A DNA stretch of 64,000 nt, taken from Buxus sempervirens (taxonomy: Eukaryota; Streptophyta; Magnoliopsida; Buxales; Buxaceae). Made by a program: the position numbers and the translations under genes. Positions 2,957 to 40,034 of this stretch are shown here, piece after piece. The DNA lies in contig OX387185.1 of the NCBI GenBank assembly GCA_947561395.2, forward strand, positions 21,767,866 to 21,831,865, in the 5' to 3' direction. The notes under the pieces were generated by a model. It was not told where the DNA came from. It saw only the letters and a list, made by a program, of their open reading frames with translations, and ran no database searches. How positions within the stretch are numbered: the first letter of the stretch is position 1; the number at the start of each line of letters is the position of its first letter.

Positions 2957-3862
2957 TTTGGATATCCTGATCATGTTTTAATGGTTTTTATTTTGAATCT
3001 GAATGAATCATATGAATCCATGATGTTTATAACTTGAGATCCCTACTTTTTTGGATTTTTCACACTTTTGCACCTACAACAATGTTTTCGTGATTTTTGT
3101 GATATTAGGCTAAGATCCTGGATCCATCATGATCAATATGATAGGTCTGGATTCAGAGGCCTGAAAATAACCTCTAGGGTTTCATGATGTGGTTTTTGAG
3201 TCGTTTTTCATTATTGAGAGAAGACCCTACGGTCCAAGTTCTCCCCTTTTGATGTTTTTCATCAATGTGGGTATTTTTGGTTTTGATTTCTTGATTTAAT
3301 GTGAAATATGGGCTATATCTATGTCCTGGACTATTCAAGTTCAATTCTGCAATATTTCATAAAAATCATATTTTTCTAGATTTCCAGAATTTAACTTAAT
3401 GCCAGATTTTTGAAGTTTTCACTTTAGATTGGTTTTATTTGATTTTATCTCAATTTTATTTTAATCATGAAACCCTAGGAATGGTATGATCATATTTGAA
3501 AGTTCTGAATCAATCAGGCTATTCGTATGAAAAAACCATACATTTTTGTCTTTTTTGTGATTTTTCATGATTTTTATAGCAAGCCTTTTTCCTTTATTTT
3601 AACATGAAAAATACCTGGCAACCACCTTGTGTGGATGAATAGGGGTGCCTAACACCTTCCCCTGTTCATAACCTAATCCCCTTACCTATCTCTGGTTGTT
3701 TTTTTAAGAGGGTTATTTTTACCCTAAATTTGCCTTTTTGAGCTTATTTGATATTTTGGTGTCCATTCACACCTAAACAGAATGGTGGCGACTCTGTGTT
3801 TTTAACCAATCCCGTGTGATGATTAGGAAGTCATTGAATTGATTTTTTTCCCATGTCTCACA
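2957..3862 (+). repeat. Element A 5' LTR remnant (U5 only)
   Basis: Homologous over its whole length to 21679-22592 of the 3' LTR, differing by scattered substitutions and an 11-bp indel near 3050. It ends in CATGTCTCACA. U3, R and the promoter are missing: homology stops abruptly at TTTGGATATCC (2957). Without U3 this copy cannot have started its own transcript since the loss. Confidence 0.9.
3786..3796 (+). other. PBS-like TGGCGACTCTG inside the LTR
   Basis: Lies 77 bp inside the LTR end. It closely resembles the start of the actual primer site at 3865 (TGGAGACTCTG). The same TGGCGACTC core sits at a similar depth in the L-type LTRs. Confidence 0.6.
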
Positions 3863-3864
3863 AC

Positions 3865-5125: not shown

Positions 5126-5270
5126 CCGTAAACCGCAATTATAATACGGGCTGGGCTAGCCCGTATTGGTTATATGGTTTGGGCTCGCCCGTGTTAACCA
5201 TACGGTCACGGCTTGCTCGTAATTTAAACATGGGCAAGGCCGGACCGTAATGTATATGCGGTTTTTGCGG
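5126..5270. repeat. Palindrome cassette, TACGGGC theme, element A leader
   Basis: Successive arms such as ATACGGGCTGGGCTAGCCCG (5155), CCATACGGTCACGGCTTGC (5198) and GGACCGTAATG (5242). It shares the stretch TACGGTCACRGCTTGCTCGT with the cassette at 15815-15955 upstream of the antisense gene, so the two arrays are related copies and not chance GC-rich sequence. Confidence 0.8.
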
Positions 5271-5400
5271 AAAATTCAACTTTAAACAGTTTTCCCCCCT
5301 AAATCTTGTTCCTTTAACCTTTAAATAATGATAAAGGGAAATGGTTTGAATAAAATGCTTCAAAAAAAATTTTTTTTTAATAAAATGTAAAAAAAAAAAC

Positions 5401-5790
5401 CCTTGGGCCTCTGAAAGCCTTTGAATTTCAGACCTTTTTCAAAAATATCCCTGGGCCTCTGAAAGCCTTTGAATTTCAGACTTTTTCTCAAAAATCTTTG
5501 GGCTGAAAGCCTTTGAATTTCAAACTTTTTCTCAAAAATCTTTGGGCTTCTGAAAGCCTTTGAATTTCAGATCTTTTTCTTTGGGCCTCTGAAAGCCTTT
5601 GAATCTCAGACTTTTCTCAAAAATCCTTGGGCCTCTGAAAGCCTTTGAATTTCAGATCTTTGGGCCTCTGAAAGCCTTTGAATTTCAGACTTTTTCCAAA
5701 AATATCTTTGGGCCTTTGAATTTCAGACCTTTTGCAAAAATATCCTTGGGCCTCTGAAAGCCTTTGAATTTCTGATCCTTCTCTCTTTTT
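5401..5790. repeat. Minisatellite in element A leader
   Basis: About eight copies of a 40-60-bp unit built on TGGGCCTCTGAAAGCCTTTG followed by AATTTCAGAC and a T-rich/A-rich tail. Copy lengths vary through loss of the tail. It lies inside the predicted leader intron, just upstream of the splice acceptor. Confidence 0.9.
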
Positions 5791-5948
5791 TGCGGGACCT
5801 GTTGGAAGCCCTAGAATATTCCAACAATTCAATTAAAAAAAAAGAAGCAAATAAAAAAAAAAACAAATCCAAACTCGTGTTCACCCAGCTTGCACATAGG
5901 CATTCATAGGTATGTGAATAAGATTAACTTGGCACTGATATCTTCTTC

Positions 5949-5965
5949 CTTTATTTTTTTTCCAG
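5949..5965 (+). other. Predicted splice acceptor before gag
   Basis: A long pyrimidine run ending TTTTTTTTCCAG, 54 bp before the gag ATG. It pairs logically with the conserved donor in the LTR R region. Confidence 0.55.
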
Positions 5966-6019
5966 GTACCTAGTACACTTGCAACCATAGCTCCTGTAAC
6001 CAGATCAAGAGCTCGCACC

Positions 6020-8307
6020 ATGAATCCCATTGAGAATGAAGTTGATGCTCCTCACCCAGATATCGTCCTGCTACAGGAGCAAGTGGTAGGACTAGCCCGA
6101 ATGCTAGAAAACATACTGTCGGTGCAAGCCCAGAACCAAGCATCCACTTCCAACCCAGCACCTCCACCCCAAATCAATATTCCACCTCCGGTTCAACCTA
6201 TTCTTGAACCCATTTATGAACCCACCCCTGAACCTGTACTGATCAGGGACGAGACAGTGGAATCGGAAAAAGCAAAGGAAAAGGAGAGAATGAGGGAGGA
6301 AGTTGAAAGGAAGTTCATGCACCGACTGGAAACGATCCAAGACGAACTAAGAGAAGTAAAAGGGGTGAACAACTTCGGGGGCATCAACTTTGAGGACTTA
6401 TGCCTATACCCTAATGTTAACCTGCCGGCTAAGTTCAAGTGCCCAGACCTAGATAAATATGATGGCACTGGTTGCCCCATGAGCCATCTGAAGTTTTACT
6501 GTGGTGCCCTATGCTAGTTCGGTCAGGATGAGGGCGTCTTGATTCAGCTCTTCCAAAGGAGCTTAACTGGAACTGCGTTGAGATGGTTTGCAACCTTAGA
6601 CCATGGAAAGATCAGAAGATGGAAGGACATAGCAGATGCTTTTTTAGCTCAGTATCGGTTTAATTCAGAGATCGTGCCAGACAGGTACGATGTAATGAGA
6701 ATGAGTAAAGGAAGGGATGAATCCGTGAGACAGTATGCCAAGAGATGGAGAGAGACTGCCTCTTAGGTCAGGCCACCCATGCTAGAGCAGGAGATGATTT
6801 CCACTTTCATCAGTACATTGGGTCAACCATTCTATAGCCATTTGGTGGGTCAGAACACCACTAATTTCGCAGCCTTGGTACAAGTGGCTGACCGAATCGA
6901 GGATGGAATCAGGTCATGTAAAATAATTGACCACTCTGCCATGGTTAGTCAATAGGACACCAATCCGAAGAAAGGAAGTGGGTTGAAAAAGAATGGGAAC
7001 AAGAAAGAGGGGGAGGTGAACATGGTGCAGCCACCATCAGGTCCTAACAAGCCCATACAAATCAATATACCTGCTCATTTTCCTACTCCTTCTGCTCCAT
7101 CTACCCAGGCCACCATGAGGGTTAATGTTCTAGCAGCACCCTCAGACCAAAAGAGGGCTTTTACTAAGGAAGAAAAGGATGCCTATTTCGCAGCAAGGAG
7201 AAATAGGGTTTTCACCCCTATTCCAATGACTCCTTCTCAGTTGCTTCCCACTTTATTGCAAGCAGGGTATATCACCTTAAGAGAACCCAATCCGAATGCA
7301 TCCAAGGGGAGAAATTTTGACCCCTCCACCACTTGTGATTTCCCATGGGTGCACCTGGGCACCCTACTGACAAGTGTTGGCCGTTGAAACACGCCATTCA
7401 GGATTTGCTTGACCAAAATACCCTGACTTTCAATACAGGGGCTCCCAATCCTCCCAGAACAGACATTGGCCAAAACCCTCTGCCTCAACATCATGGGGTA
7501 AGCCCATCTAATTTCAGAGGGGTCATTTCCTCTGATAAAATAACCTTTGACCCATCCCAGTTAATTGCTCCAATAGGGACGACGGTCAAAGTTTATTTTG
7601 ACAAAAGAAATAGGGAAAAAGAAATAAACGTGATTTCAAAAGGGAATGATCGTGCTGCTGAGAATATTAGCTCTGATTTGGACCGGGCCTCCTCTCTCAT
7701 GGCCCAACTAAATATTGCAAAACCACTTATGGTTATCAATTTCAATCCATCCAGCCATTCTTCACCACCTCCATCAAAACTACCATTGGTCATAAATTGT
7801 GACCATCTCAATGCTTCTATTACTTCTGTGACCCTTCAACCAAAACAACTTCCACCATTGGTTGTAGATGTTCCTCCTACTCAGACTTCCGCATCCAGGA
7901 CCAAGCTTCCTCCCCTTGTAATAAATGTCCCAAAGCCTTCTTACTCTGAATTAGCTGTACCGTGGAACTACAGTGAAGGCTACACCACCACATTTCCTGT
8001 AGTTGAGGGAGAAAGCAAGAAAGAAGTAAACCTCATGATGAGGTCGGGAAAATGCATAGGTGAGGGAGAGAAACAGAAAGAAAATGGGAAGAAAGAAGCT
8101 GAGAAAGAGAAAAACAAGGGAAAGGCCAAGGTAGGGGAAGATGCCCCTCAGGTAATTGACAGTGAGGCTGCTGACCTCATTAAAATCATAAAAAAGAGTG
8201 AGTTCAATGTTGTCGAGCAATTGAACAAAGTCCCTGCCCAGATCTCAATTCTGGGATTATTGTTGAATTCTGAAAAACATAGGGACTCTCTGCTAAGAGT
8301 ACTTTAG
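6020..8307 (+). pseudogene. gag: gag of element A (broken)
   Basis: Encodes the capsid precursor that packages element RNA. The ATG at 6020 opens a 165-codon reading frame with a Pro-rich segment (LEPIYEPTPEP), a charged helix (EKAKEKERMREEVERK) and the start of the retrotransposon gag domain (KCPDLDKYDG). The domain continues through YAKRWRE to about 6950. A zinc-knuckle-like CDF..MGAPGHPTDKC follows near 7340 and a Lys/Glu-rich tail near 8050. In-frame stops: TAG at 6515, 6764, 6953 and 8305. A frameshift lies at about 7340, within the knuckle. The order and motifs match the gag of element B (22594-24003) residue for residue in the core. It is not translatable as it stands. Confidence 0.88.
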
Positions 8308-8316
8308 GGGGCACAT

Positions 8317-9318
8317 GTGCCTAAGAATATTGAACCAGACCAACTAGGCCAGATGGTTGGGCAAATTTTATCCCATAATGTCATAACTTTTTCTGAAACC
8401 GAGATCAGCCCAGCAGGGTACCATCATGTTGATCCTTTGCACATAGCTGTGCTCAGTAAGGGTTGCATGATAGCCCGGGTTTTAATTGATAATGGGTCGG
8501 CTTTGAATGTCTGCCCGTTAATTAGATTTGTTAAGCTCGGTCTGGAGCAAAATAAAATGAAGCAAAATGGGAGAATCATAAGAGCCTTTGATAGCTCTAA
8601 AACACATTCCCTATGGGAGGTTGAACTGCCGGTCACTATTTTACCGTATATTTTTAACATCACATTTGAAGTGATGGATATACCTGCAGCCTTCAACCTA
8701 CTCCTAGGAAGGCCGTGGATTCATATAGCTAGGGCTATACCATCTACCCTCCATCAAAGAGTCAAATATATTAGAGGGCAAAAGGTGATTACGGTCTTAG
8801 CCGAGAACTTGGTTCCTCCCATGTGGTCCCCTAATGTACCCTACATAAACATGGAAATGACTGCTGACAAGATGGCATTTCACTCTTTCCAATTTGAAAC
8901 TGTTAATTTTAGACCTGGGGGGTATCAGGAAAAAGAAGGAAAGTTGACCTGTGCTGAGAAAATGGTCAAGAAAGTACTGGGAAAGTACAATTTCCACCAT
9001 GGAAAAGGTCTGGGGATTAACCTGCAAGGAAGGATAGAACCGGTAAACGTTAAGAAGATGGTCCCTAGAGCAAGATTGGGGTCCAAACCAGCTAATTGGA
9101 GAAGACAGAAGCAGTTGGAAGACATGAAATTCCCTCACATCAGGGAAACTTTTCCTAAGCTTTCTCATATGATTCAGTTGTCTCCTCCCCAGGATCAGTC
9201 CAAACCCCCATACTATAACATCAACCCGTTTCAGAAACCCAAGTCCTCAACCTTGCAACCATATGTTCTACCTTCACCTCCCCAAGCATTGGGTGGGCCT
9301 GGGCCACGGGCAGAATAG
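8317..9318 (+). pseudogene. Aspartic protease region of element A
   Basis: Continues the frame of 7345-8304 past one TAG. The retropepsin active site is VLIDNGSALNVCPL at about 8490 (DNG in place of the common DSG or DTG; this variant is usual in Tat/Athila-like proteases). The flap and second domain follow, with FNLLLGRPWIH at about 8700. Downstream, FHHGKGLGINLQGR near 9000 resembles a G-patch, which is often found behind the protease in this lineage. The frame ends at TAG 9316, where the codon context suggests a former CAG. The enzyme would cut the Gag-Pol precursor inside the particle. Confidence 0.85.
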
Positions 9319-10830
9319 GAGCATGATATTTCGGAGGACATTGGAGCATTTTTTGCCATGACTGAAGGCAACCAAGAAGAAGGAGCAGATGAGCTACCCT
9401 TCATTGACTGGGCTGCAGTAGAAGTTCCATCTGGGACAAGCCTTACAGAAGAAGCAGGCGATGCAACTCACCCAGTACTGGTGATTTCAGATGCGGACCC
9501 TGAGCTTGAGGAGCAGGCTTGTACCCCTGCCCCAGATTCTTTTGTTTTGAACAATTGGGAGGAAACTCCCCTTACTTTTGAAGCCGCGTTTGTTTGGCAA
9601 ACAGACATGGCTTCCAAAAAAAAAAACTCCATTAGTGGAATGCGCTTTTCCTGAAGGTTTTAATGAGCCTTCGCCTTCAGGAAAAGATTTTTTAGAAGGC
9701 TTTCAAAAAACACCAAAAGATTTTTCAATTTTTTCTAGAAAAATTAAATTTTTCAAAAAGGTCCAAGCCATTTATGAACCCTATAAGCAAACGGAATTGG
9801 ATCAGGTTGAGTATGACTTCGACCTCGAGCTCGACTTTGACCTAATGGGGGTTGAGGAAGAGACTGAGGACGAAGAATACGACCCTCCAAAAGAAATCAC
9901 ATATCAATTAGAGCGTCATGAAAAGGGGGTCACCCCCAATATTGAAGAGACCATATCAATAAACCTAGGGATCGAAGATGACCCAAAAATAGTGAAGATT
10001 GGGGTATGCCTATCTGAGGTACAGCGTGATGAAATGATACAGTTTTTGGCTGATTATGAAGATGTATTTGCATGGTCGTATCGGGATATGCTAGGGTTAG
10101 ATACGGACATGGTTGTGCACAAGCTACCAATTCTACCAGGTGTTAAGCCAGTTAAGCAGAAACTGAGAAGGTTAAAACCTGGGTGGACATTGAAGGTCAA
10201 AGATGAAGTGGTTAAGCAATTCCAAGCGGGATTTTTGGCAGTCTCCACGTACCCTGAATGGCTTGCAAATATAGTACCAGTACCAAAGAAGGATGGAAAG
10301 GTCCGAATGTGCGTAGAAAATAGAGAATTGAATAAGGCAAGCCCAAAAGATGATTTTCCACTTCCACACATCGACATCTTGGTGGACAACACTACTGTAC
10401 ATAGCCTGTTTTCATTCATGGATGGTTTCTCTGGGTACAATCAAATTAGGATGGCTAAGAAAGATCAAGAGAAAACAGCCTTCATTACACCTTGGGGTAC
10501 CTTTCACTACATTGTTACTGCCATTTGGGCTTAAGAACGCTGGGGCAACCTACCAATGGGCCATGACAGCCTTATTCCATGATATAATCCATAAGGAGAT
10601 GGAGGTCTATGTAGATGATATGATAGCCAAATCATGTAAAGAAGAAGACCACTTGATCAACTTGAAGAAGGTATTTGACCGGCTCAGGAAATACAGTCTA
10701 AGGCTTAACCCTGCAAAATGCGTCTTTGGGGCTACATCAGGAAAATTATTGGGCTTTATAGTAAGCAGAAGGGGAATTGAGATTGACCCAGCCAAAGCTA
10801 AAGCAATCATTCAAAATGCCATCACCTAGA
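9319..10830 (+). pseudogene. Reverse transcriptase of element A (two frameshifts)
   Basis: After an acidic linker (9358-9900, many D/E residues), the RT domain runs from about 10000. Visible motifs: VPVPKKDGKVRMCVENRELNKA (about 10270), FSFMDGFSGYNQI (about 10410), AFITPWGTF, then PFGLKNAGATYQ and the catalytic YVDDM (about 10605), LNPAKCVFG, and LLGFIVSRRGIE. All three catalytic aspartates are present. One frameshift sits in the poly-A run at about 9607, another at about 10515 between GTFHY and PFGLKN, and a third at about 10812 leads into the RNase H frame. The protein is inactive as encoded. Confidence 0.9.
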
Positions 10831-11440
10831 ACGGAGAAGGAAGTTCGTGGTTTTCTTGAAAGGATTCAGTACATAAGCCGGTTCATAGCCCAACTCACTG
10901 CTATCTATGAACCAATCTTTAAGCTTCTGAGAAAGAATAACCCAACGGTCTGGAATGACGATTGCCAAGAAGCCTTTGACACAATAAAGGAATATTTATT
11001 GAACCCACCTGTTCTAGTACCACCAACTCCAGGAAGACAATTGATTTTATACTTGTCAGTCTTGGAGACGTCAATGGGGTGTGTTTTGGGGTAGCATGAT
11101 GAAATAGGCAGAAAGGAAAGGGCGATCTACTATCTAAGTAAAAAGTTCACAGAATATGAAGCAAAGTATTCCCCTTTGGAAAAGACTTGTTGTGCTTTAG
11201 TATGGGCAACTCAAAGACTGAGGCACTATTTCCTTAGCCATTCCACCTTATTGATATCCCGAATGGACCCTCTGAAGTATCTATTTGAAAAACCGGCTTT
11301 AACTGGCAGAACGGCAAAATGGCAGCTGTTACTCTCTGAATTTGATCTCACATACATCACTCAGAAGGCCATTAAGGGTCAAGCCATCGCTGATCACCTA
11401 GCTGCACACCCTTTACCAGAATACCAACCCTTAAAGACCG
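10831..11440 (+). pseudogene. Gypsy RNase H of element A
   Basis: Starts with the RT connection segment (EKEVRGFLERIQYISRFI). The RNase H then runs through LILYLSVLETSMGCVLG, IYYLSKKFTEYEAKYSPLEKTC and the tail ALTGRTAKWQLLLSEFDL. The first catalytic Asp, normally in YLSVS or YCDAS contexts, is not obvious here, which is common in Tat elements where this RNase H has decayed and the second one takes over. A TAG at 11092 replaces the Gln normally found in GQHD. Confidence 0.8.
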
Positions 11441-11479
11441 ACTTTCCTGATGAGGCAATCCTGTTTACTGAAGAAGAGG

Positions 11480-11949
11480 AAGGTGAAAGCTCTTGGCAAA
11501 TGTTCTTTGATGGGGCCGCCAATATGAATGGAAATGGAATAGGGGCAGTTTTGATCAAGCCAGATGGGGCACATATCCCAATCGCAGCGAAGCTAAGGTT
11601 CCAATGCACGAATAATATTGCAGAATATGAAGCATGCATAATCGGGTTACAAGCAGCCTTAGACCATGAAGTGGAGGAATTTGATGTATATGGAGATTCG
11701 AGTCTTATCATCTTCCAAACAACTGGTGAATGGAAAACCAAGGATCACAAATTGATCCCCTATCACCAGTATTTGGAAGAAGTAAGCACCAAATTCATTA
11801 AAATTTCCTTCAATTATATGCCAAGGGCCAAGAACCAATTCGCGGATGCGCTAGCCACATTGGCTTCAATGGTCAGTATGCCAGAAAGTGTTGATATTAG
11901 ACCACTGGAATTGAAGTCAGAGATGAACCAGCTTATTGCCTTGTTCTAG
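11480..11949 (+). pseudogene. Second, archaeal-type RNase H (aRNH) of element A
   Basis: Open without a stop from 11176. The ribonuclease H fold shows all four acidic positions: FFDGAANMNGNGIG (Asp near 11510), NNIAEYEACIIGLQAAL (Glu near 11625), VYGDSSLIIFQ (Asp near 11695) and FADALATLAS (Asp near 11845). A second RNase H of this type between the gypsy RNase H and integrase defines the Tat lineage. It would remove RNA from the RNA/DNA hybrid during reverse transcription. This is the best preserved domain of the pol region. Confidence 0.9.
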
Positions 11950-11974
11950 AAGAAATTCCAGAAGAAGAAGTACC

Positions 11975-13221
11975 ATGGTTTCAAGACATTAAGAACTTCC
12001 TAAATGATCAGAGTTTGCCAGAAAATGTCACTTCTACAGAGAAAAGAACAATACAGAGGCTGGCAGGTCAGTTTTTACTAAGTGGTGGGCCGTTATACAA
12101 GAGATCACACAACGATATCCTACTCAGATGTGTTGCCAAGACCGAGTCAGAAAGATTAATTGAAACTGTACATGGAGGAGTTTGTGGACCCCATATGAAC
12201 GGGCACATGCTGGCCAAGAAGATTCTGTGATTGGGATATTACTGGTCAACGATGGAGCATGATTGCTATATATATGTCAAAAGGTGTCATTTATGCCAAG
12301 TGTATGTTGATAACAAAAATGCACCCCCAAGTGAGTTGCACAACATGACATCTCCATGGCCCTTCTCCATGTGGGGTATAGACGTCATTGGAATGATCTC
12401 TTCAAAGGCATCAAATTGACACAGGTTTATACTTGTAGCAATCGACTATTTCACCAAGTGGGTAGAAGCAGCTTCCTATGCAAACATTACAAGTAGCCGT
12501 GTTCTTAAGTTTTTGAAGCACAACATCATTTGTCGCTATGGTTTGCCAAGTGCCATAGTAACAGACAATGCTTCAAACCTTAAAAACAAGGATATGAGGA
12601 AGATGTGTGAGCAGTATCAGATTACCCATCACAAGTCAGCTCCGTACAGACCAAAGATGAATGGGGCAGTGGAAGCAGCGAATAAGAATATAAAGAAGAT
12701 CATTCAGAAGATGGTTAGTGAGTTTCAAAGATTGGCATGAAATGCTGTAACTTGCTCTACATGCTTACAGAACCTCAATCCGTACCTCTACAGGGGCAAC
12801 CCCGTATTCCTTAGTATATGGGATGGAAGCAGTTTTATCAGTGGAAGTAGAAATCCCTTCACTAAGAGTGCTAATGGAAGCTGAATTAGAAGAAGCTGAA
12901 TGGATACAGTCAAGACATGATCAACTAAATTTAATAGAGGAAAACTGGTTAAAAGCACTTTGTCATGGCCAATTGTATCAGAAGAGAATGGCCAGGGCTT
13001 ACAATAAGGTGTAGCCCAGAACTTTCCAAGAAGGAAATTTAGTATTGAAGAAAATTTTACCTTTTTTGGAAGATCCTCGTGGAAAATTCAAACCAAATTG
13101 GGAAGGGCCTTATGTGGTCAAGAAGGTCTTATCAGGGGGTGCTCTCATCTTAACAGAAATGGATGGGAAAGATTTTCCTGAGCCAATTAACTCTGATGCA
13201 GTAAAGAGATATTTTCCTTGA
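11975..13221 (+). pseudogene. Integrase of element A (broken)
   Basis: The N-terminal zinc domain is visible (ETVHGGVCGPHMNGHMLAKK then CHLCQV). The DDE core follows: first Asp in WGIDVIG (about 12380), second Asp in VTDNASNLKN (about 12560), and Glu in MNGAVEAANKN (about 12665). The C-terminal part ends NSDAVKRYFP and TGA at 13219. Interruptions: TGA at 12228, 12417 and 12738, TAG at 13012, plus frameshifts before 12015 and near 12740-12823. It would insert the cDNA into chromosomes. No chromodomain follows, as expected for Tat. Confidence 0.88.
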
Positions 13222-14113
13222 TTGAATATTACTAAGAAATGATCTGAGGCCATTTTTCCTTATTTCCCAGAATTTTCATCCCTAGTCAAGCCAATTTGAG
13301 CCTGTTCGTCTTCTTTGATAAACCTAAACTGGACTTACAGTCTTATACTGGGGTAAGGCCAATACGGGCAAAAAGAGAAAAAAATAAAGAGAAGAAAAAT
13401 AGTGGCAAATGAAAGCCAAATACAAAAAAAAAGGGGAAATGGGATTAAATTCATCATGACTATAAGTCCGGTTGACCTATTTTCACACTTAGAAAATTTT
13501 GAGCCTTTAATACCTTTTCTTTCATAAACGGAGCTTAGCCTTTGTTTCGTCCTATTCTTAAGCCCTCGGTGATTTTTGTATATTCATTCAACTTTCAGAA
13601 TAAGATTGGTAATGACGGAATACAGAAGCCGGCCCTAGTGAAAACCGTAATTGGTGCTAGGGGCAAAAGAAAAAAGGAAAAAAATAAAAAAAAATCGAAG
13701 GTTGAGTTGTTCATGTGGTCCAAGTTTGAAGTCAGCATGAGCACTAGAAATTGAGCAGATTAGCAGTGTCAGTCATGGAGGAAAAGCCATTTGCGAATGA
13801 TTCTAAAGGTCGCAGGACAGACAGATTTGGTCTCTCCCTATTGCTTGGACTACCCTTTTCATTATTCAACCTGATTTTAATTCCTTTGATTATATGTGAT
13901 TAAGTGTTTTGGATCAGTTTAAAAAAAACTATATTTTGGCCAGTGATGAGAAATCAAATACTTTTTCATAAAACTTCTGTTTTTACAAGCATCTGAGAAT
14001 TCTGAAGCCAATAATATAAAACCTATTTTTGAACTAAATTCTTTATCATTCCACTATTGGAGTTTGCTTTTGTATAAAAGTATGAAAAAAAAAGAAAGAA
14101 AAAAAAAAGGAAT
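13222..14113 (+). other. Spacer between integrase and the antisense gene
   Basis: No gene seen. It holds A-rich runs and short motifs (TTTGAGCC, TTCGTCCTATT, CTAGTCAAGCCA) that recur in element B at 24790-25200, showing that B descends from a similar pol-bearing element. Confidence 0.55.
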
Positions 14114-15694
14114 CTAATCCCTACTCCCTAAGTGCTCCTCAAGCTCCCTAATCCGAGCTGCCTGAGTTGCGATGATTCCAGAAGCTCCCTCTGCATCAAG
14201 ATCGCTAAAAAAAGGAGATGATCTCATCTGAAAGTGATTGCTTGATCTTCAATGCCCTAATGTCAGCCAAGGAATCCTGATATTTCTTCCGCATCGCTCG
14301 GACTTCAAAGCGACGAGCCTGTCTTTGTTCTTCAAGTTTCTTCTCCATGGCAATGCGGCAAGACCTCTGTTCTTCAAGTTGTCTCTCCAAATCAATACCC
14401 TTTATCTTGAGCTCTTGTGCTTCTCGTACCCATATTTGTTGAAGCCACTTTTGGGTTGCCCTTTCAGACTTCAGGATGTCCTCATAAGTAGGGGGAAGAA
14501 CTGCAGGAGGATCCTCTGGCACTGGGGCATGACTCTGCACCTGCTCTTTGATCCAGAAATGATAGTCCTTCACATGGGACTCAGAAAAGACTGGACCCCG
14601 CAAAAAGTGAACATAGGACCACTCATTCATTAATTGAGCATTTAGCCCCATGGTGGCTGGTGTAAGTGGCCCTTAGAAGTTCTCATATCCAGTTGGGATC
14701 ATAATCCACTGGGTTGCTCTAAACTGCCGAGGCACCCTCGAGGGAAGATAAAGAACAGCAGATTTCAAGCCTGCTAGGACTAGAAAGTTCCTATCTCTGA
14801 AGCTGATCACTGTCTTTGGATTGGGCTGATAAGTGCCAGACCATCTCACCTGATTATCCTTGAGAGTACCCAAGAAAGTGAACCAGCCCTGCTTGCCGCC
14901 TTGGATATTAGGACACCCCCTGTTGCTCATCAAAACAGGAACTTTCAATCTTGGAAAGAAGCGGGGAGTTATCTCTTCAACCTGACTCAGGTGGTCAAGC
15001 AACCAAAGTTACAGGCAAGAAAGCGTTTCTTCTTTCTGAAATAGCAGTCAGTCAGGGCTTGGTATATCTCTGCGAAGATCATATGGGCCAATCTCTCACG
15101 TTCCCTAACCTGACAGATAACTGAGATAAGAGCCAAGTCAACCTGATCGTCACCCTGTTGAAAAAGCAATTGGTTGACCACCATCAGAGTCAAAGCATTA
15201 AACCTGGAGTCCTTGTCCTCACTCCTTAGAAGTTTCTCAGTCAAAAAGGTCTTGGACAAGGTCAGCAGTGTATCAGAATTTTCTAAGTCCTTCTTCCCTA
15301 TACCTAAGAAGGTGGAGGTCTCCTTTTTGTAGCTAGGCTTTAGGGGCGGGCTCACAACTTTTTCAGAAAACCTTAGGCCAAGGATGGTTTCAATTTCTTC
15401 TATGGTAGGAGTCATCTCTTTGTCATCAAACCGGAAGAGATTCAGTTCAGGTACCCAGTGTCCAATCAAAGCTTCAATGGTTTCCCACTTAAAGGGAATT
15501 TTAGGGATGTGTAGGATATGGCCTAAGTGGATGGAATCCAAACGAATTTCCTCATCAAGGGTCATGGAGTTAACCCACCTATCATAGAAGGAATCCACAA
15601 CACTGTACCTTGTGAGATTAGGAGGTTTGGATCTAACAGGTGGTCTTGCAGGAGGAGATCCATCAACAGAAGAGAAAGGGGCGAGGGAAGCCAT
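14114..15694 (-). pseudogene. Antisense gene 1: DUF7745-like protein with C-terminal coiled coil
   Basis: Encoded opposite to gag-pol. The ATG at 15694 opens 236 codons (MASLAPFSSVDG...). The globular part contains HIPKIPFKWETIEALIGHW, FRFDDKEMTPTIEEIETILG and LALISVICQ, a pattern I associate with the DUF7745 family found in plant transposons. A frameshift near 14998 moves to the next frame (LDHLSQVEEITPRFFPRLK). A TAA follows at about 14685. The C-terminal half is a long coiled coil (LERQLEEQRSC, MEKKLEEQRQAR). A frameshift in a seven-T run near 14210 leads to the tail RIRELEEHLGS and a stop at 14114. Its own TATA box and palindrome cassette lie directly upstream. Function unknown; the family name is from memory. 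Confidence 0.7.
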
Positions 15695-15785
15695 GGAAGC
15701 ACCAAAGAAGCCAAGGAAAGCAGAAAACGGAAGGCTCAGGGAGTTTTCTAACTTTTAAAAACGTCACAGTGACGTTCCCCTTGAG

Positions 15786-15793
15786 TTTATATA
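15786..15793 (-). promoter_or_regulatory. TATA box of antisense gene 1
   Basis: Minus-strand TATATAAA, 92 nt upstream of the ATG at 15694 and 21 nt downstream of the cassette at 15815-15955. The spacing is the same as between cassette and TATA box in the L-type LTRs. Confidence 0.6.
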
Positions 15794-15814
15794 GAAAATT
15801 CGAAATGGCAGTAA

Positions 15815-15955
15815 ATTCCGTATTTATAATACGAGCATGGCGTGCCCGTATAGAGAATGCGGACACACTATGACCATAAAAAGTTTACGGGCAGAGTGTG
15901 TCCGCATTGACATTACGGTCACAGCTTGCTCGTAACATAAATACGGTTCTTTCGG
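15815..15955. repeat. Palindrome cassette, TACGGGC theme, upstream of antisense gene 1
   Basis: Arms include AATACGAGCATGGCGTGCCC (15828), AATGCGGACACACTATG, TTACGGGCAGAGTGTGTCCG (15888) and TTACGGTCACAGCTTGCTCG (15914). It shares its theme, and a near-identical 20-mer, with the leader cassette of the same element. Confidence 0.8.
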
Positions 15956-16291
15956 AAAAATGAAAAAAATGGGAAATTTCGATTTTAATGCTTTCCCAAG
16001 TTACACCTGTCCTTGCTTAAACATGTATCATGCAATAGAAGCAAGAAATAAAGAGGAAAAGAGCATAAATGAAGAAAAAATGAATCAAACTACTTTTATA
16101 TATATGAAGGTGTACATCATTTTGTCAAAATACAAGTACATGAATGAATCCTAATCTACTGTCTATACAGGTCAACCCCTACGGCCACGGCTATGTCCTC
16201 TGCCTCGACCACAGCCTGGAGATCGCCGGCACTCCAAAACATGCCGTACACTTTTACGAGCTGTACTATGGGTCATCCTGCTCAAAACAAA
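15956..16291. other. Region between the two antisense genes
   Basis: AT-rich 15956-16150 with no recognised feature. From 16150 to 16291 lies the 3' end and probable 3' untranslated part of antisense gene 2. Confidence 0.4.
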
Positions 16292-19004
16292 CTAAATATC
16301 ATGCCACATATATAAAGGCACAAGGCCAGCAGTGGGATGATCAGGAGGAACGTACCCTGAAGTATCTACATATCCCGTAGACTCGGCATCAGAATCCGTA
16401 GAGACAGGCTCAGTCGCGGGATTGGCAGCAGCAAGATCAGCAGGAACGGACACCCAGGAGCATCAGTATCAGGACCAGGCTCTACAGGATCAGCAGCAGC
16501 CTCCTCTATCACCACAGCCTCTTCGGTAGGCTCCACCACAGTGGCATCCTTGGCCGACTCCATATCCATATCTGCAGACGCATCAGGAGCGATTTTAAGT
16601 GCTGGAGCAGACTCTGGCACATCCTCAACAGCAAGTGCAACCTCAGCCTCGATCTCAGGCTCTGCTGCAGGTGCCTCCACCGATCTAGGAGAAGTCACAA
16701 ACTTCACCCGTGCCACAGGGAAAACCTCGCCACGAAGGTGCATAGGCACAGATGAAGCAGGAGAAGAAGGGCCGGCTGTGTCATCCTGAAAATAAGAAAA
16801 GAAATTTTAGTCAGAACAGGATAAGCAGATATAAGAACAGGAATGGAAATAAGTGAAAGAATTAACCTGGGTATGAGATGGACCTGCCTGGTCCTATGCA
16901 CCAGAAGGGCCCGCTTGGCCCTGCGCCCTGGCAAGATGTCCCCGGAGATCTGAGATAGTAATATAGAGGGCATCCCGCTCAGCAATAGCAGCATCTCGCT
17001 GGCGCTCTATATCAGCGTACCGAGACCGGATCTCTGCCAACTGAGCCTCCTGAAATAGAAGATAAGGTGTCAGAAAATACCAAGTTCAAATAAAATATAA
17101 GAATGGAAGATCAAAAAGAGAGAAGGCATACCGTCATGTCATAGGCCCTAATCACTACCCCTCATATCTCCGTGACTCCGCCACAGACAGGAATGGGTGG
17201 CATGAGGCACCTAACTGAAGCTCGCTTGAACCAGGCATCATAGTCACCCTCCTCCAATAATGTCTCTGCCTCCGTCCAATCTAGGAACTGGGCAGGATCA
17301 ACAGGCATAGGAGGAAAGGAGGGAGTAGTATCTGGAGGAATGGCAGGAATCCGGGGCTCTCCAACATGCTGATAAAAGAAGCGCTCACCGCAATACTGGA
17401 TGCTGCCCATCTGACCAATAAAAAACTGGTAGCGCTGACGTCTCTGGTCAGGGGCAAAGACATCATCTCTAGCCGCATGCAGGGCCAGCACCTCATGAAT
17501 ATCCTCCATCCTGGGGACGAACAGCTGAAAAACAGAAAAGGATATTAGACATGTGATCCAAAAAAAAAAAAGAGAGAAGAAGTAAGGAAGCTTACCTCAG
17601 ACCGATATCGCCTGTCCAGATGAGCCCAGGCAGACCTAGGACAACTCTTTTCATAGTCGTGCTCCACATGACACCACTTACGAGCCATGGGATATGTCTC
17701 CTCTGACATCGTAGAGGTAGGGAGGAAATAGGGAATATAAACCGTAGCAAAAAATTGCAAAAAGAAGAAAAAGGGTCAGAAAAATAGAAAAGGAGAAAAA
17801 AGAGAGAAAGAGAAAGAAAGATAAGAGAAATAAGTGTTTCACCTGCAAGAAGGGCCAGAAGAATCTGCACCCAACTCCAGCCCCTCGAGAGGTAGAGAGA
17901 CCGCTAATTGACCAGCGCAGACCAGCCAGAATGGTACCGAAAATGAGCGGGCCCCATGCATATCTCCTCGCTCGCTGAAAGTCTCCCAATAAGCTCAAAA
18001 AATGAGGACTGACAGAAGTCGTGTCCTCTGGGATGAAACAGGAGCCCATCATATACAGAAAAATGAATCGGAAAGCAAATGGAAAAGCTGGATGACCGGT
18101 GGCAGTCTGTCCAAGCTGCCTCCTCCGGAAGGTGTCTCTCAACCAAGTTAGAGACAATCTCGCTCTCCCTCTATCCCATGCCTCCGGAGGCAAAAAAATA
18201 TAGCCAAGATAAGAGGCGATCTCCTCGGCATCCGGCATCACCATCTCGGGAATAATATCACCGGTCATCCTAATCCCGGTGATAAGTATAAAGTCAGAAG
18301 GCCGGATCCCGATCTCAACATCTGGAAAGTGGAAGCTCAGTGTCTCGGGAAAGAACCTTTCGAGCAGCGCAGCAATAAGAGCTCAGTCCAGGCGAACATC
18401 TGGGATAGTGATGAATAGGCCAAAACCATACAAGCCTAGCTCCCGGCGATAGGCTGAACTGCAGTCCCCGATAAATCTAATAAAGCTGGCCCAGGTCCCT
18501 CGACAATGAGACATGGGATACTCCAAAGGGATATCTGCCCTAATACACGCTGAGGAATGAGTCCTCAAGCCATGCAAAAGATCAGTATCCCTAATCTGGG
18601 CAGCGACCTCCTCAGGGACCTCAACCCTGGTCCTAACCTTATCTCTGCCACGGCCTCCTCTGCGGCATCCTTTACGGTCCTCATCATGGCCTCCGTCTGC
18701 CTCCACCTCGGCGCCTGCTATGGCTCCTATCTCAGCCTGAAGCCTCAACTGCCAGCTAAGGAAACAATTGGAAGGGAGAAAGAATCAGGGTGATGCATTT
18801 TGTGAAGGAATGTGAAATTTCAGAAAGGTTAGAGTATACCTCTGGGGTCGCCTCACGCGAATCCCCAGAAGGGAGATCTGGGATATCAGAATCGAAATCC
18901 CTCTCGGCCCTCGAAGATGAGGCCACATCAGCATGATCCCGCCGAACCCTCGAGGAGGAGGGCTGATCCGCAGGATCCCTAGAAGCTGATCGAATGCGGG
19001 CCAT
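16292..19004 (-). pseudogene. Antisense gene 2: plant mobile domain (PMD) protein, six exons
   Basis: Opposite to gag-pol. Exons read on the minus strand: 19004-18840, 18748-17843, 17700-17596, 17524-17132, 17049-16867, and 16785 to about 16292. Each boundary has GT/AG and every intron falls in phase 0, so about 700 residues read through. Exon 2 carries the PMD: GTWASFIRFIGD, LSLTWLRDTFRRR, FRFIFLYMMGSCFIP, YAWGPLIFGTILAGL and GVGCRFFWPFLQ. Exon 3 has ARKWCHVEHDYEKSC. Exon 5 is a coiled coil (YADIERQRDAAIAERD). Exon 6 is Ala/Glu/Pro-rich. Stops: TGA in exon 2 (near 18385) and exon 4 (near 17160), TAG in exon 5, each one transition from CGA or CAG. A frameshift lies near 16455. PMD proteins of the MAIN/MAIL1 family act in silencing and gene expression; the role here is unknown. 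Confidence 0.82.
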
Positions 19005-20334
19005 CTGCGGTTCAAATCAGGGAGATGTTTAATTATTCTTGTTAAAAAGTTTTTTATTGCTTGATTTCCATTTTAACTAAGTTTAATTGATTTGCAGGAA
19101 AAAGAAAAAATGAAGAATGGAAGAAATTGCTTCAGAAACTCCCGACCAAAATCAGAAGTCAACTAAGGAGTTTATTTTTGAGAAATTTTATTGTTTTAAT
19201 TACTTGTCTTTGCTTTAATCAAGAAAAAATATATATATAAAATTTATATATAGGAAGTTCAGGCTTCCTGTATATTCTCTTTATATGAAAAAAAGAAAAA
19301 AAAATATGTGTATTGATCTTAATTTTCTCTTTTGGGATTTTCTAAAAAGACCTAACTATTTAAATTTATTTGGTTCCAGGATGGAAGGTCATGCCTACTT
19401 GTATTGATACTAGGGTGGCAGGAGAAATGCAAAATTGAGGGTGGAGTGTTCAACATCAGCAAGGGTTCTACTCGAACTAATGTGTTCAAAACTGAGAAAA
19501 TGATAGCATCTCAAGTTCCAAGACCAAATAGGCAAAGCATGAAGGTCAGATGACATAGTATGCAAAAGCAGAATCAAGATTCACACAAGCAAATAGAAAA
19601 TTTAAGAGCAAATCATGGAGCTGTCACAAATCAGATAATCATAAGTCATATGCTTGGTACAATGCCGGTCAAGGGTCAGATACATAAATTCAGAGCCAGC
19701 ATTTCGTTGGTCAAAACAGAAAATTGCATGGGAATAAACAGGTGTCGGCCAAATGAACAGACAGAATCAATTTTGGTTGAACATGAAAACCAATACAGGC
19801 AGGATAATCATGGAGTGTCCAAGGCAGTAAACAGTTACAATCCTAATCATATTCGGATGCTCAGAGAAATTGCAAGGCATAGTCGAGCAAAAATCATGGT
19901 TACAATCTGTCAAGGGATGCAACAAAAATGAAATGACTCTTTGGCATACCTGTTTATGTCGAAATGAGAAATCAACAAAGAAAAAAATTGAACCTTCGAG
20001 CTCACCCACAATGGATATCCAATGGATGCTCGAAACGGCAATGAGGAGGCTTGACAGTAGCTCAAAAAGGAGATAAAAGTCACCAGAGATATTGGAACAG
20101 TCGCCCAAGAAGCAGGGAGGCAAGTCGATGTCGGAGAAGCAAGGACTCACCGGAGAACAAGAGTTGCCGGAGAATGAGAGAGTCTCCGGCGAAGTCGTGT
20201 GTCACCGCAGAAGTCGTGCGGACGGAGATTGAAAAGGAAGACCGGAGTGAAGAATGCGGGCAAAGAGATTAGGGCTGAAGTGCGGGCAGTAATGAAGAAG
20301 GAGTTCGCGGCCGCAGTTAAGAAGGAAGCCAAAA
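19005..20334 (-). other. Probable leader and 5' intron of antisense gene 2
   Basis: On the minus strand, a consensus donor CCG/GTGAGTCC lies at 20150 and an acceptor CCGCAG directly abuts the ATG at 19004, so 20150-19005 may be a long 5' UTR intron. No conserved ORF is seen. The layout is inferred from splice consensus only. Confidence 0.45.
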
Positions 20335-20441
20335 TCCGTAAAAGCAATACGGGCAACAGGCGCCCGTGAAGGTAATACGGTCAAATTCACCCGTATACAA
20401 TTTATGGGCATCATCTGTCCGCAATAAAAATACGGGCGAAA
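20335..20441. repeat. Palindrome cassette, TACGGGC theme, upstream of antisense gene 2
   Basis: Arms: AATACGGGCAACAGGCGCCC (20347), AATACGGTCAAATTCACCCG (20376), TTTATGGGCATCATCTGTCC (20401) and AATACGGGC (20429). It is the third of four same-theme arrays in element A. No clear TATA box lies downstream on the minus strand. Confidence 0.75.
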
Positions 20442-20786
20442 CAGAAAATTGCATTTTTCATTATTTTCTCCACACTTTTCAAGAGATTAATATCTATATT
20501 AGTTGTAAGTTGCAAGGATTGCCACCTTACCCACTTTTGTTTAAAATTTTTGTCTCAAATCTCACTTCATAGCCACGAGTGCTTAGTGAGACCAGAGAGG
20601 AGGATTTACCCCTTAAGATTAGGGACTTTTCAGCAAATCTTCCACACAAATACTTTTTCCAAAATCATCCATTTAATCCTAGCAAAATGCAATTAGTTAG
20701 ACAAAAATCTCAAAAAGTGCAATTGGTGGGTCTTTTTTTGCTCTCTGCTTGTAATTGGTTCCAATTACCAGCAAAGACAGGGTAGT
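20442..20786 (+). other. End of element A internal region with polypurine tract
   Basis: A-rich with no ORF of note. It ends AGCAAAGACAGGGTAGT directly before the 3' LTR; the purine-rich stretch is the likely plus-strand primer. Confidence 0.5.
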
Positions 20787-20880
20787 TGTAGACACCCCAA
20801 ATTGCACTACAAAATGAGAAAATAATGAAAACATATAATTGGGGTTTAAAACAGACCAAAAATGCATGAAATTCAATAAT

Positions 20881-20999
20881 TTAAGCCTTGCCCGTATTGT
20901 ATCTATGGGCTGAGCGCGCCCGAATTTTGTATACGGGCACGCAGCGCCCGTAATGCATATACGGACACCACTTGCCCGCAATACATTTACGGGCGCATT
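20881..20999. repeat. Palindrome cassette, TACGGGC theme, element A LTR U3
   Basis: Arms: TTGCCCGTATTG, TATGGGCTGAGCGCGCCCG, TATACGGGCACGCAGCGCCC (20930), ATACGGACACCACTTGCCCG (20959), TTTACGGGCGC. Fourth array of the same theme in this element, about 195 bp upstream of the TATA box. Confidence 0.82.
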
Positions 21000-21194
21000 A
21001 GATTTGTGCGAATTTTATCCTTTTTCAATTTCTAAGCTTTATCTTCAGTCTAATATCTCTTTAAATGAGCGAATTATATCTTTTATTCGTTTGGATTATC
21101 CTTGTTGGCCGTGGATGGGCATTATCCTTGTGTTTAATTCAATCTGAAACTCTATTTTGCCAAACCCTGGACCAACCATGCCCCTGGCTTTGCC

Positions 21195-21202
21195 TATAAA
21201 TA
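21195..21202 (+). promoter_or_regulatory. TATA box of element A LTR
   Basis: TGCCTATAAATAGAGGG. It is conserved with the left LTR (1562-1569) and marks the start of element transcription about 30 bp downstream. Confidence 0.8.
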
Positions 21203-21290
21203 GAGGGTCTCTCCTTAGGCAAAGGGCCATGAAATTTTGAAGTCTAAGGAGCTCCAAGAGAAGAGAGGAACCCCTGCTGCTCTGCTTGCT

Positions 21291-21300
21291 CAATCCAGGT
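21291..21300 (+). other. Predicted splice donor in R of element A LTR
   Basis: CAATCCAG/GTAAGTCC, a near-perfect plant donor about 70 nt after the expected transcription start. L-type LTRs have a donor (CAAG/GTAATG) at a comparable place in R. Confidence 0.6.
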
Positions 21301-21367
21301 AAGTCCCTTTTCCCTTTTATTTTCTGTCTTCAATTCTAGAAGTAATCAGTTCTTCTCTATTGCTGTA

Positions 21368-21655
21368 GAATAAGGCCTCCTTTTATCTTGTATTCCTAAA
21401 CTTGTCCCTAAGTACCTCAAGAGTCTCTCTAGCCGTAAAACGTGAAGAGAGAGCTAGGGGAAAGGGGAACAGGTGGATCCCTAGAATAGAACCTCATATC
21501 TATTTTCTCCTTTTTTCTAGAATAAGGCCTTTGATTGTGTTTGTGTACCCAAACCTATCTCTAAGTACCTCAAGAATCCTCTCTAGTCGTAAAACGTGAA
21601 AAGAGAGCTAAAGGAAAAGAGAACAGGTGGATCCGTAGGGTAGGCCCCCATGTGC
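21368..21655 (+). repeat. Tandem duplication in R/U5 of element A LTR
   Basis: Two copies of about 145 bp, each with AATAAGGCCT, CTAAGTACCTCAAGA, CTCTAG-CGTAAAACGTGAA and ACAGGTGGATCC. The copies differ by substitutions and small indels, so the duplication predates this insertion. Confidence 0.8.
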
Positions 21656-22593
21656 TCTAATCTGTGAGATGTGGCTGCTTTGGATATCCTGATCATGTTT
21701 TAATGGTTTTTATTTTGAATCTGAATGAATCATATGAATCCATGATGTTTATAGCATGAGATCCCCACTTTTTTCTAAAAATTGGATTTTTCACACTTTT
21801 GCACCTACAGCACTGTTTTCGTGATTTTTGTGATATTAGGCTAAGATTCTGGATCTATCATGATCAATATGATAGATCTGGATTCAGAGGCCTGAAAATA
21901 ACCTCTAGGGTTTCATGATGTGGTTTTTGAGTCGTTTTTCATTATTGAGAGAAGACCCTACGGTCCAAGTTCTCCCCTTTTGATGTTTTTCATCAACGTG
22001 GGTATTTTTGGTTTTGATTTCTTGATTTAATGTGAAATATGGGCTATATCTATGTCCTGGACTATTTAAGTTCAATTCTGCAATATTTCATAAAAATCAT
22101 ATTTTTCTAGATTTCCAAAATTTAACTTAAAGCCAGATTTTTGAAGTTTTCACTTTAGATTGGTTTTATTTGATTTTATCTCAATTTTATTTCAATCATG
22201 AAACCCTAGGAATGGTATGATCATATTTGAAAGTTTTGGATCAATCAGGCTATTCGTATGAAAAAACCATACATTTTTGTCTTTTTTATGATTTTTCATG
22301 ATTTTTATAGCAAGCCTTTTTCCTTTATTTTAACATGAACAATACCTGGCAACCAATTTGTGTGGATGAATAGGGGTGCCTAACACCTTCCTCTGTTCAT
22401 AACCTAATCCCCTTAACTATCTCTGGTTGTTTTTTTAAGAGGGTTATTTTTACCCTAAATTTGCCTTTTTGAGCTTATTTGATATTTTGGTGTCCATTCA
22501 CACCTAAATAGAATGGTGGCGACTCTGTGTTTTTAACCAATCCTGTGTGATGATCAGGAAGTCATTGAATTGATTTTTTCCCATGTCTCACAA

Positions 22594-24003
22594 CCTCCGC
22601 CATAGCAGGCAATACCTCCGCTGCAACCACCAGCGCCACAACCATAGCAACCGGTTCCTCAACCACTGCCAATCCCTCCAGAAGAGCTTCCACAAGCTCC
22701 TCTGCAGAAAAACCCACATTTGCCTGAGCAGCCAATCCCACAACCTCCGCCAGCTCAGCCAGTACAGCAACTGCCGATTCCAGTGCCCCCTGCTATCCCA
22801 CAGCAACAAGTAATGCTACAAGGAATGGGGCATGAAGAAGAAGAGTGGTACCGAGCACAGGAAGTAGTGGGTGTCACAGCCCAGATGCAAGCCGATTTAC
22901 AGGCCCTAAAGGAACAAATGCAGAATGTGAATTGAGGTCCTGTGCCAAAAGAAGCCTCACTAGACAGACTGGGATTTTTCCCTAATTTACAACTCCCGCT
23001 AAAATTCAAATGTCCAGACTTGGTGAAATTTGACGGGAGTAGCTGTCCACTGTCACATCTACGAGCGTATTATGGAGATATGTGCCAATATGCACATGAT
23101 GAAAGGATCATGATTCAATTCTTTCAACTCTCACTGACAGAGTCGACACAGAAGTGGTTTGCTAGTCTTGATAGGAGCCGAATCAGGACTTGGAATAACC
23201 TGGCAAGCACCTTCCTCGAGCACTTTAAATTTAACACCGAGGTCTTGCCCACTCGGATGGAATTGCAGAAAATGTCCAAGAAAAGTACCGAATCCATCCG
23301 TGAGTACGCTAAGAGGTGGCGGGAAATGGCTGTGATGGTTCAACCGCCCATGCTAGAAAAAGAGATGGTGACACTGTTCATCTCGACGCTGGGGCAGTGT
23401 GCTGCAAGCTTTGCAGACCTTGTTGTAGTGGCAGACAGAATAGAGGATGGAGTGAAATCCGGCAGAGTGGCAGGTTTTGCAACAGAGCCGGCAATGCAAA
23501 GAAGGAACCCTGTTGGTGGAAGGGGCATGGATAGAAAGAAAGAAGACGAGACCATCAACTACGTCCAGCCGAACAGGCCTTTCCACTTCCCAACACCAGA
23601 CAGGAAGGAAAACCAAAACAGTGGCCAGGGAGCACAGTTCACAGGACGGCTGAGGTAGACAAAAGAAGAATTTCAAGCAAGGTTGAACAGGGTGTTCACA
23701 CCCCTGACTTATTCATTGTCAGAATTACTGCCAACCCTATTGAAGAATGGGTATTTACAGAGAAAGCATCCCGTCCAACAACCATCCAACAGTCGTTCCT
23801 ACAACCCCAATGATTACTGCGACTACCACATGGGGGCCCCTGGACATCATACCAATCGCTGTTGGGAATTGAATCACGATGTCCAAGACTTGATTGACAA
23901 CAAGCGCATCTCGATCGATCCTCCAGTATCGACCCCTCCTATGGCCACTGCCGCAAATCCTCTTCCTAACCACAATCAGGCGTCTTCAAGTGGCACCAGC
24001 TGA
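22594..24003 (+). pseudogene. gag: gag of element B
   Basis: One reading frame with a Pro/Gln-rich start (QPIPQPPPAQPVQQLP), then the gag domain from FKCPDLVKFDGSSCPLSHLR through KWFASLDRSRIRTWNN, REYAKRWREMAVM and LVVVADRIEDGV, then TPLTYSLSELLPTLLKNGYL and a zinc-knuckle-like CDYHMGAPGHHTNRC. Stops at the two TAG codons near 22603 and 22648, TGA near 22933, and TAG near 23656. No frameshift is needed, so it is less decayed than the element A gag. The N-terminus is cut by the element A insertion; the ATG lies elsewhere or is lost. Confidence 0.85.
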
Positions 24004-29362: not shown

Positions 29363-29372
29363 ACAATTTTAA

Positions 29373-39929: not shown

Positions 39930-40034
39930 TAACCAAAATTTAATTTCGGCTATACCTAAAATGTGGTATAACCGAAATTAAGTTTCAGTTGTACCAACAT
40001 TTTAGGTTGACCGAAATTATATTTCGGTTAAGCC
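39930..40034. repeat. Palindrome cassette, TAACCGAAATT theme, L3 downstream array
   Basis: TTTAATTTCGGCTATACC, GGTATAACCGAAATTAAG, GACCGAAATTATATTTCGGT. Same theme as the U3 array of the same LTR, and at the homologous place to the GTATCCGG array of L1. Confidence 0.85.

Follow-up and report, generated by a model that had tools for sequence, protein, structure and literature searches.

In Arabidopsis, the VANC proteins encoded by VANDAL transposons have been shown to bind motifs in their own elements and to remove methylation and silencing (PMC5735166, PMC10398659). These motifs differ between related elements, namely YAGTATTAY for VANC21 and AGTTGTCC/AGTTGTAC for VANC6 (PMC5735166, PMC10398659). 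Large plant long terminal repeat (LTR) retrotransposons carry extra open reading frames (ORFs) whose function is an open question (PMC11963269, PMC6317226). The antisense ORFs of Retand elements have been suggested to bind DNA and to play a regulatory role (PMC11963269), and 57% of Ogre elements reportedly encode a plant mobile domain (PMD; PMC6317226). Here we describe a 64-kb stretch of the Buxus sempervirens genome (contig OX387185.1, positions 21,767,866 to 21,831,865, hereafter the window) in which a decayed Tat/Ogre-type LTR retrotransposon, element A, carries four arrays of one short motif. These arrays are very probably clusters of a 21-bp DNA operator bound by a dimeric protein, and the core of this operator recurs, with other letters around it, in other LTR elements nearby. 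The whole analysis is based on this one window, which contains nested LTR elements throughout, and the copies are mostly decayed.

A first-pass annotation of the window had proposed that element A repeats the motif TACGGGC at four separate sites. All four arrays were found where it had placed them, and their limits are refined here by grid position (Table 1). Within the four intervals fixed beforehand by that annotation, we counted 25 TACGGGC/GCCCGTA half-sites with at most one mismatch in 512 bp (6, 5, 6 and 8 in the leader, gene-1, gene-2 and U3 intervals, respectively), against 0.69 expected from the 86 half-sites in the remaining 63,488 bp (Poisson P 3.5e-30). No 140-bp stretch outside the element A arrays, sampled in steps of 20 bp, held more than two half-sites. 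The near-identical 20-mer described for the first two arrays is also present, as positions 5201-5221 and 15914-15934 match at 20 of 21 bases. One motif set recurs, as proposed, at several regulatory places of the element: in the U3 of the LTR, in the leader, at the antisense gene 1 promoter and, in addition, in the neighbourhood of antisense gene 2. The further claim that two of the arrays lie upstream of the antisense genes is borne out for gene 1 and is weaker for gene 2, because that array is 1.3 kb from the predicted start at 19004 and is followed by no TATAWAW for 1082 bp on its strand.

Beyond the first-pass annotation, we found that the half-sites sit on a 14/28-bp grid, that they pair into a CCG-N11-CGG dyad unit, and that neighbouring LTRs use the same frame with other letters. 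All 25 half-sites are spaced at multiples of 14 bp with alternating orientation, and the sole exception is a 13-bp step in the gene-2 array. The full grid set comprises 36 half-sites (10, 10, 8 and 8), in which the end half-sites were placed by position and carry up to 3 mismatches. The half-sites of this set contain 9.6 bits of information, and the spacers contain 3.7 (n=13) and 4.1 bits (n=18), indicating that the half-sites are conserved and the spacers freer; position 4 of the half-site is invariant (G in 36 of 36). By grid position, each array opens with a CCG-side half-site and closes with a CGG-side half-site, giving 5, 5, 4 and 4 whole dyads, and all eight grid positions just outside the array ends lack CCG/CGG. 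Spacers within dyads have a GC content of 17.5% (n=18), against 51.5% between dyads (n=14). The array ends, the outward positions and the spacer GC together point to a 21-bp dyad, NNCCGNN-N7-NNCGGNN, as the unit of the element A arrays.

The two arms of these dyads do not track each other. Arm complementarity in element A was 0.724 (14 pairs) and 0.706 (18 pairs), against 0.758 and 0.743 for shuffled partners. Because arm mismatches are uncompensated in either register, DNA half-sites fit better than RNA hairpins in element A, which is the element that this test covers; the dyads of other elements are more perfect. Each half-site is drawn to the consensus independently of its partner, as for a protein meeting two half-sites.

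The core of the dyad extends well beyond element A. Scanning 64 trinucleotides against their own reverse complements at 41 gaps (0-40) returned CCG-N11-CGG as the strongest dyad in the window, with 33 sites seen against a background of 4.5 (z 13.4; next 7.1), and a Markov model gave an expectation of 3.0. The 33 sites fall into 13 groups and all except two lie in arrays of element A, of the elements M1 and B, or of the S LTRs, a third kind of LTR that starts with TGTAAGCACC where the start is seen. The two sites outside any array are at 46582 and at 20205, the latter grouped with the gene-2 array yet off its grid. Requiring an exact core and at least 3/4 palindromic flanks left 21 dyads at spacer 7 against 0.15 expected, and the same criterion gave 0-4 dyads at each of the 20 other spacers within 1-21. 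Besides element A, the frame is present in five LTR elements (M1, B, S1, S2 and S5) and in the fragment S6. We therefore rejected the idea of a theme wholly private to element A, since the core is common to other elements; what holds of that earlier proposal is that the flanking letters differ. Dyad starts in element A follow each other at 28 bp, with one step of 27 bp, whereas most steps in the S arrays measure 39 bp. Spacing from dyad to dyad is thus variable, unlike the strict inner gap, and the difference of 11 bp between the two periods, about one helical turn, would suit DNA binding.

The letters around the core are specific to the element. The theme of element A is GCCCGTA (= TACGGGC), and those of the other elements are listed in Table 1. 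Identity of the four flanking letters was 0.678 within elements and 0.315 between elements (label permutation with the 12 arrays as units, P 1.5e-4). This test used 96 half-sites taken from the sequence with nothing dropped, and six of its eight within-element pairs come from element A. Removing the flank filter (102 half-sites) gave P 1.5e-4, and restricting the set to exact cores (62 half-sites) gave P 5.5e-4. In the S lineage, arrays belonging to a single LTR were 0.82 and 0.83 alike, whereas homologous arrays compared across LTRs scored 0.21, 0.50, 0.53 and 0.43, with a core identity of 0.81-0.93; this contrast comes from two LTRs because only S1 and S2 have both arrays. The S-lineage comparison relied on a hand-made list of half-sites omitting the dyads at 29506, 30271 and 41475, together with the grid set for element A. 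Some themes are common to different elements, namely S5 with S6 (0.96) and M1 with B (0.80).

Where a promoter is expected, most arrays precede a TATA box. We hand-picked seven promoter-type arrays (the U3 arrays of A, M1, B, S1 and S2, and those of genes 1 and 2 of element A), keeping dyads of another spacing in S3 and S4 out of the count. Five of the seven have a TATAWAW on the right strand at most 210 bp downstream, at 14, 15, 23, 201 and 202 bp, compared with 10% of random positions. The U3 array of S2 is followed by no strict TATAWAW for 2263 bp, and TCTATAGA lies nearer. Other arrays are placed differently: from the LTR end to the leader array of element A the distance is approximately 1.3 kb, a further 0.76 kb separates this array from gag, and S1, S2 and S5 have their downstream arrays inside the LTR. 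The 5' LTR of element A is a truncated copy without U3, and its array is therefore missing.

Element A is assigned to the Tat/Ogre type on two features. Its pol pieces follow the order RT, RNase H, additional RNase H and integrase that Ogre and Retand elements have in common (PMC6317226), with Pfam matches to RVT_1 at 9578-10534, to RT_RNaseH and then RVT_3 at 11095-11946, and to rve at 12420-12737. It also has a PMD-encoding extra ORF, in gene 1, the first of two opposite-strand genes downstream of gag/pol. The gag was identified by eye because it resembles the gag ORF of B, and a Pfam scan of 6020-6517 returned no gag match. Gene 1 matched DUF7745 (E 1.2e-17, 64.5 bits, cut-off 26) and PMD (E 7.5e-9, 35.6 bits, cut-off 34.9). 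A weak colinear continuation of DUF7745 lies in another frame at 14676-14990 (profile 208-276, E 0.13), followed by an ORF at 14205-14651 that looks like a coiled coil by eye and has a weak Pfam leucine-zipper match below cut-off (E 0.012); this copy of gene 1 is therefore broken. An AlphaFold prediction for gene 1 made without an alignment had a mean pLDDT of 38.5 and was not used.

Searches of large sequence collections returned no relatives of these proteins. Comparison of the gene 1 protein with 5.8 billion proteins gave 215 candidates, none significant, and 11 pattern-matching stretches in viral contigs included no relatives. The RNase H protein had no relatives among 6 viral-contig and 15 genome-contig stretches, and each of two DNA patterns had 0 matches in viral contigs. 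Because the collections searched were viral, prokaryotic or metagenomic, these results say nothing on absence in plants.

Table 1. Coordinates of element A, its antisense genes and the dyad arrays of the window
Feature	Position	Strand	Details
Element A 5' LTR, truncated	2956..3864	+	96.3% identity to 21678-22594
Element A leader array	5131..5263	+	10 grid half-sites; 5 CCG-N11-CGG dyads by position; 28-bp period
Element A gag and pol pieces	6020..12737	+	RT, RNase H, additional RNase H (RVT_3), integrase; interrupted frames
Antisense gene 1	14205..15694	-	start codon 15694; PMD/DUF7745 ORF 14987-15694
Gene-1 TATA box (TATAWAW)	15787..15793	-	23 bp downstream of the gene-1 array
Array upstream of gene 1	15816..15948	-	10 half-sites; 5 dyads by position; 28-bp period
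Antisense gene 2 (predicted)	16366..19004	-	predicted start 19004; several predicted introns; in-frame stops
Gene-2 array	20334..20437	-	8 half-sites; 4 dyads by position; one 1-bp slip
Element A 3' LTR	20787..22594	+	starts TGTAGACACC; TATA box at 21195
U3 array in element A 3' LTR	20890..20994	+	8 half-sites; 4 dyads; 28-bp period
M1 U3 array	1771..2037	-	LTR start 2150; theme AACCGCA; 5 dyads at irregular distances; TATAWAW 202 bp downstream
B U3 array	30226..30476	+	LTR start 27068; theme AACCGCA/AACCGTA; irregular; split by solo LTR S1; TATA box 15 bp downstream
S1 downstream (R/U5-side) array	28341..28478	-	theme ATCCGGC; 4 dyads; 39-bp period
S1 U3 array	29376..29617	-	theme ATCCGGA/C/T; TATA box 14 bp downstream
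S2 downstream array	39931..40029	-	theme AACCGAA; 39-bp period
S2 U3 array	41294..41392	-	theme AACCGAA; 39-bp period; TCTATAGA at 41274-41281
S6 fragment, single dyad	42131..42151	-	theme AGCCGAC
S5 downstream array	55475..55573	+	theme AGCCGAC; 39-bp period

Several other repeats were observed in the window. A 17-bp palindrome with 8-bp arms, AACGTCACAGTGACGTT, is located at 15760-15776, between the gene-1 TATA box and the start codon. A second palindrome, the 21-bp CTGAAAGCCTTTGAATTTCAG, occurs in 8 copies (at most one arm mismatch) at 5411-5774, in the part of element A that separates the leader array from gag; its arms match at only four other places, with 2 mismatches each. The solo LTR S1 (27286-30200), flanked by the 5-bp duplication CGTAC, sits within the dyad array of LTR B. 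Repeat-like stretches at 37220-37480, 43890-44030 and 51900-52070 are built on GCGCTCACCTC/GTGAGCGC words, in part with an 11-bp period, and are possibly the array theme of another LTR lineage. A 227-bp tandem duplication with 99% matches is present at 48702-49157, inside the pol region of a minus-strand retrotransposon.

Which protein would read the arrays is a separate question from the operator itself. We lean towards a reader encoded by the element. The candidate is the element's own antisense PMD protein, because element A shows no products beyond gag-pol other than those of its two antisense genes and because gene 1 ends in a coiled-coil-like part, which could dimerise the protein. Such a dimer would sit on the LTR U3, on the leader and on the promoter of its own gene, and once bound it would keep the element promoters active against host silencing in a positive, self-recognising loop. 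As elements diverge, the letters around the CCG core would then change together in all arrays of an element. The whole chain, in which a PMD dimer recognises its own arrays and maintains the activity of its promoters through activation or anti-silencing, is offered tentatively from sequence features, and we hold it with some doubt. Somewhat more speculative is a wider form, in which Tat/Ogre elements would carry a self-recognition code made of the constant CCG-N11-CGG and a four-letter family address, located at the promoters of the LTR, the leader and the antisense genes, with PMD dimers protecting their own family alone from silencing.

A number of observations weigh against a PMD reader acting at promoters. 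Both antisense genes of element A are broken in this copy, and the PMD match of gene 2 is weak (exon ORF 17678-18268, E 4e-4, 20.1 bits against a cut-off of 34.9). No PMD or other Pfam domain scored above cut-off in B, M1 and S, where 27 of at least 38 ORF pieces of at least 90 aa were scanned, so that the link between motif and PMD comes from element A only; most of these elements are solo or partial LTRs, where no PMD would be expected, and the gag ORF of B was covered by a separate scan. In Arabidopsis, the motif linked to PMD proteins (CATGCAGTTT, from the promoter of MORC1) lacks a CCG dyad, and its direct recognition by PMD proteins is a hypothesis only (PMC9899485). A TATA box for the gene-2 promoter was looked for and not found, and neither the leader array nor the downstream arrays of S1, S2, S5 and S6 are at a known promoter. 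Distances between dyad starts are irregular in M1 (68, 117, 23 and 38 bp) and B (45, 31, 86, 29 and 39 bp). In place of N11 arrays, the S3 and S4 LTRs each have a single CCG-N13-CGG dyad (at 43100-43118 and 46840-46858, respectively), 43 bp before a TATA box. No N11 dyads with a core mismatch of at most 1 were found in S4 (46219-47000) or in the U3 of S5 (52965-54250), and S3 has only five scattered loose N11 dyads when one core mismatch is allowed.

The other explanation that survives best, although we consider it unlikely, is that the arrays are bound by host transcription factors whose sites have a CCG/CGG core, such as AP2/ERF-DREB or LBD proteins. The flanks of each element family would then be adapted to a different host factor, and the PMD protein would do something else. 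AP2/ERF sites have a CCG core in common, the S5/S6 half-site AGCCGAC matches the DRE core A/GCCGAC, and the positions of arrays upstream of TATA boxes resemble those of ordinary enhancers. However, a 21-bp dyad with exactly N11 between its triplets exceeds what single AP2/ERF sites need, and themes that are alike within an element and unlike between homologous arrays of related LTRs suit an element-specific reader. Host control of LTRs has itself been described, such as that of ONSEN by HSFs under stress (PMC12859917).

Considerably less probable is negative autoregulation, in which an element protein would repress the LTR and antisense promoters and so limit copy number. That the gene of the likely reader has at its promoter the same sites as the U3 driving the main transcript is what a feedback repressor would show. 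However, in the five cases with a TATA box, the box is 14-202 bp downstream of the array and not covered by it, and clustered upstream sites are more typical of activators; whether regulation runs towards activation or repression is not readable from the sequence.

We consider it improbable that the arrays are neutral tandem repeats that expanded by slippage in non-coding parts and have no function. Family-specific tandem repeats of unknown function are common in related Retand elements (PMC11963269), and the near-identical units of the S arrays look partly duplicated. However, one motif occupies four separate sites in element A, and CCG-N11-CGG stays constant across elements while other letters change. 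Plain tandem repeats are also disfavoured by the divergence of the element A spacers next to half-sites that have not diverged. Very improbable indeed are RNA stem-loops acting in packaging, dimerisation or stability of the genomic RNA: the inverted repeats could fold, the S dyads are strongly palindromic, and the leader and 3' U3 copies should be in the full-length RNA, but the uncompensated arms of element A, which pair no better than shuffled partners in both registers, disfavour hairpins there, and the array upstream of the gene-1 TATA box is outside the expected gene-1 transcript.

Because the dyad frame is fixed and its letters are specific to the element, it offers a handle on which protein binds and on whether specificity follows the letters. 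If true, a self-recognition code would give retrotransposons a counterpart of VANC whose code can be read, and it would supply a function for the PMD-encoding extra ORF that Ogre elements have. MAIL1 and other host PMD genes have been described as derived from transposable elements (PMC7156037), and if PMD proteins read the frame, these host genes may descend from such readers. On the same condition, the frame might also yield orthogonal plant DNA-binding modules.

Several described systems resemble parts of this arrangement. Gal4-type fungal sites, CGG-N11-CCG, are read by a coiled-coil dimer, and like the dyads described here they consist of two CGG triplets with an 11-bp gap. The likeness is a structural analogy only: their orientation is opposite to that of CCG-N11-CGG, although the continuous grid of element A gives both, and no Zn2Cys6 protein turned up in the Pfam scans, which included no search aimed at Zn2Cys6. 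Among plant PMD proteins, MAIN, MAIL1 and PP7L are linked to a promoter motif (DOWN), to expression and to silencing (PMC7156037, PMC9899485); unlike the antisense genes of element A, these are host genes, their motif lacks CCG dyads, and direct binding is unproven.

Ogre elements of the Tat clade have the pol domain order and the PMD extra ORF seen in element A (PMC6317226). The available part of that description makes no mention of promoter motif arrays and asks whether the extra ORFs function at all. We found no account of such arrays in Ogre elements in the literature, a weak negative given that coverage was partial. Retand elements are similar to element A in having antisense ORFs between pol and the 3' LTR, family-specific repeats and the same pol order (PMC11963269). 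The Retand antisense domain is TRP28 (PF04195), unlike the PMD of element A (PMC11963269); our scan of five antisense ORFs gave no TRP28 match with an E value of 1 or less, although not all intron-split or broken parts were included. The domain is not universal in Retand, as it is reported from 97% of clusters (PMC11963269) and from 23% of Retand elements (PMC6317226). In the portion available, the Retand description gives no dyad grammar and no motif common to the LTR and the antisense promoters (PMC11963269).

The first-pass annotation had named VANDAL and VANC as a close parallel. In terms of class the parallel fails, because VANDAL is a Mutator-like DNA transposon whereas element A has LTRs, RT, RNase H, integrase and PMD proteins. 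The motifs also differ in build: those described for VANC in the accounts cited are single and short, whereas the element A unit is a dyad of 21 bp whose core is constant and whose spacing is exact. An element-encoded reader has been demonstrated for VANC; for element A it is a prediction from sequence. The parallel does hold for the arrays themselves, which resemble published VANC targets (PMC5735166) in being element-specific and made of short motifs in non-coding regions. As in VANDAL, related elements in the window have different motifs, and the repeats diverge between relatives.

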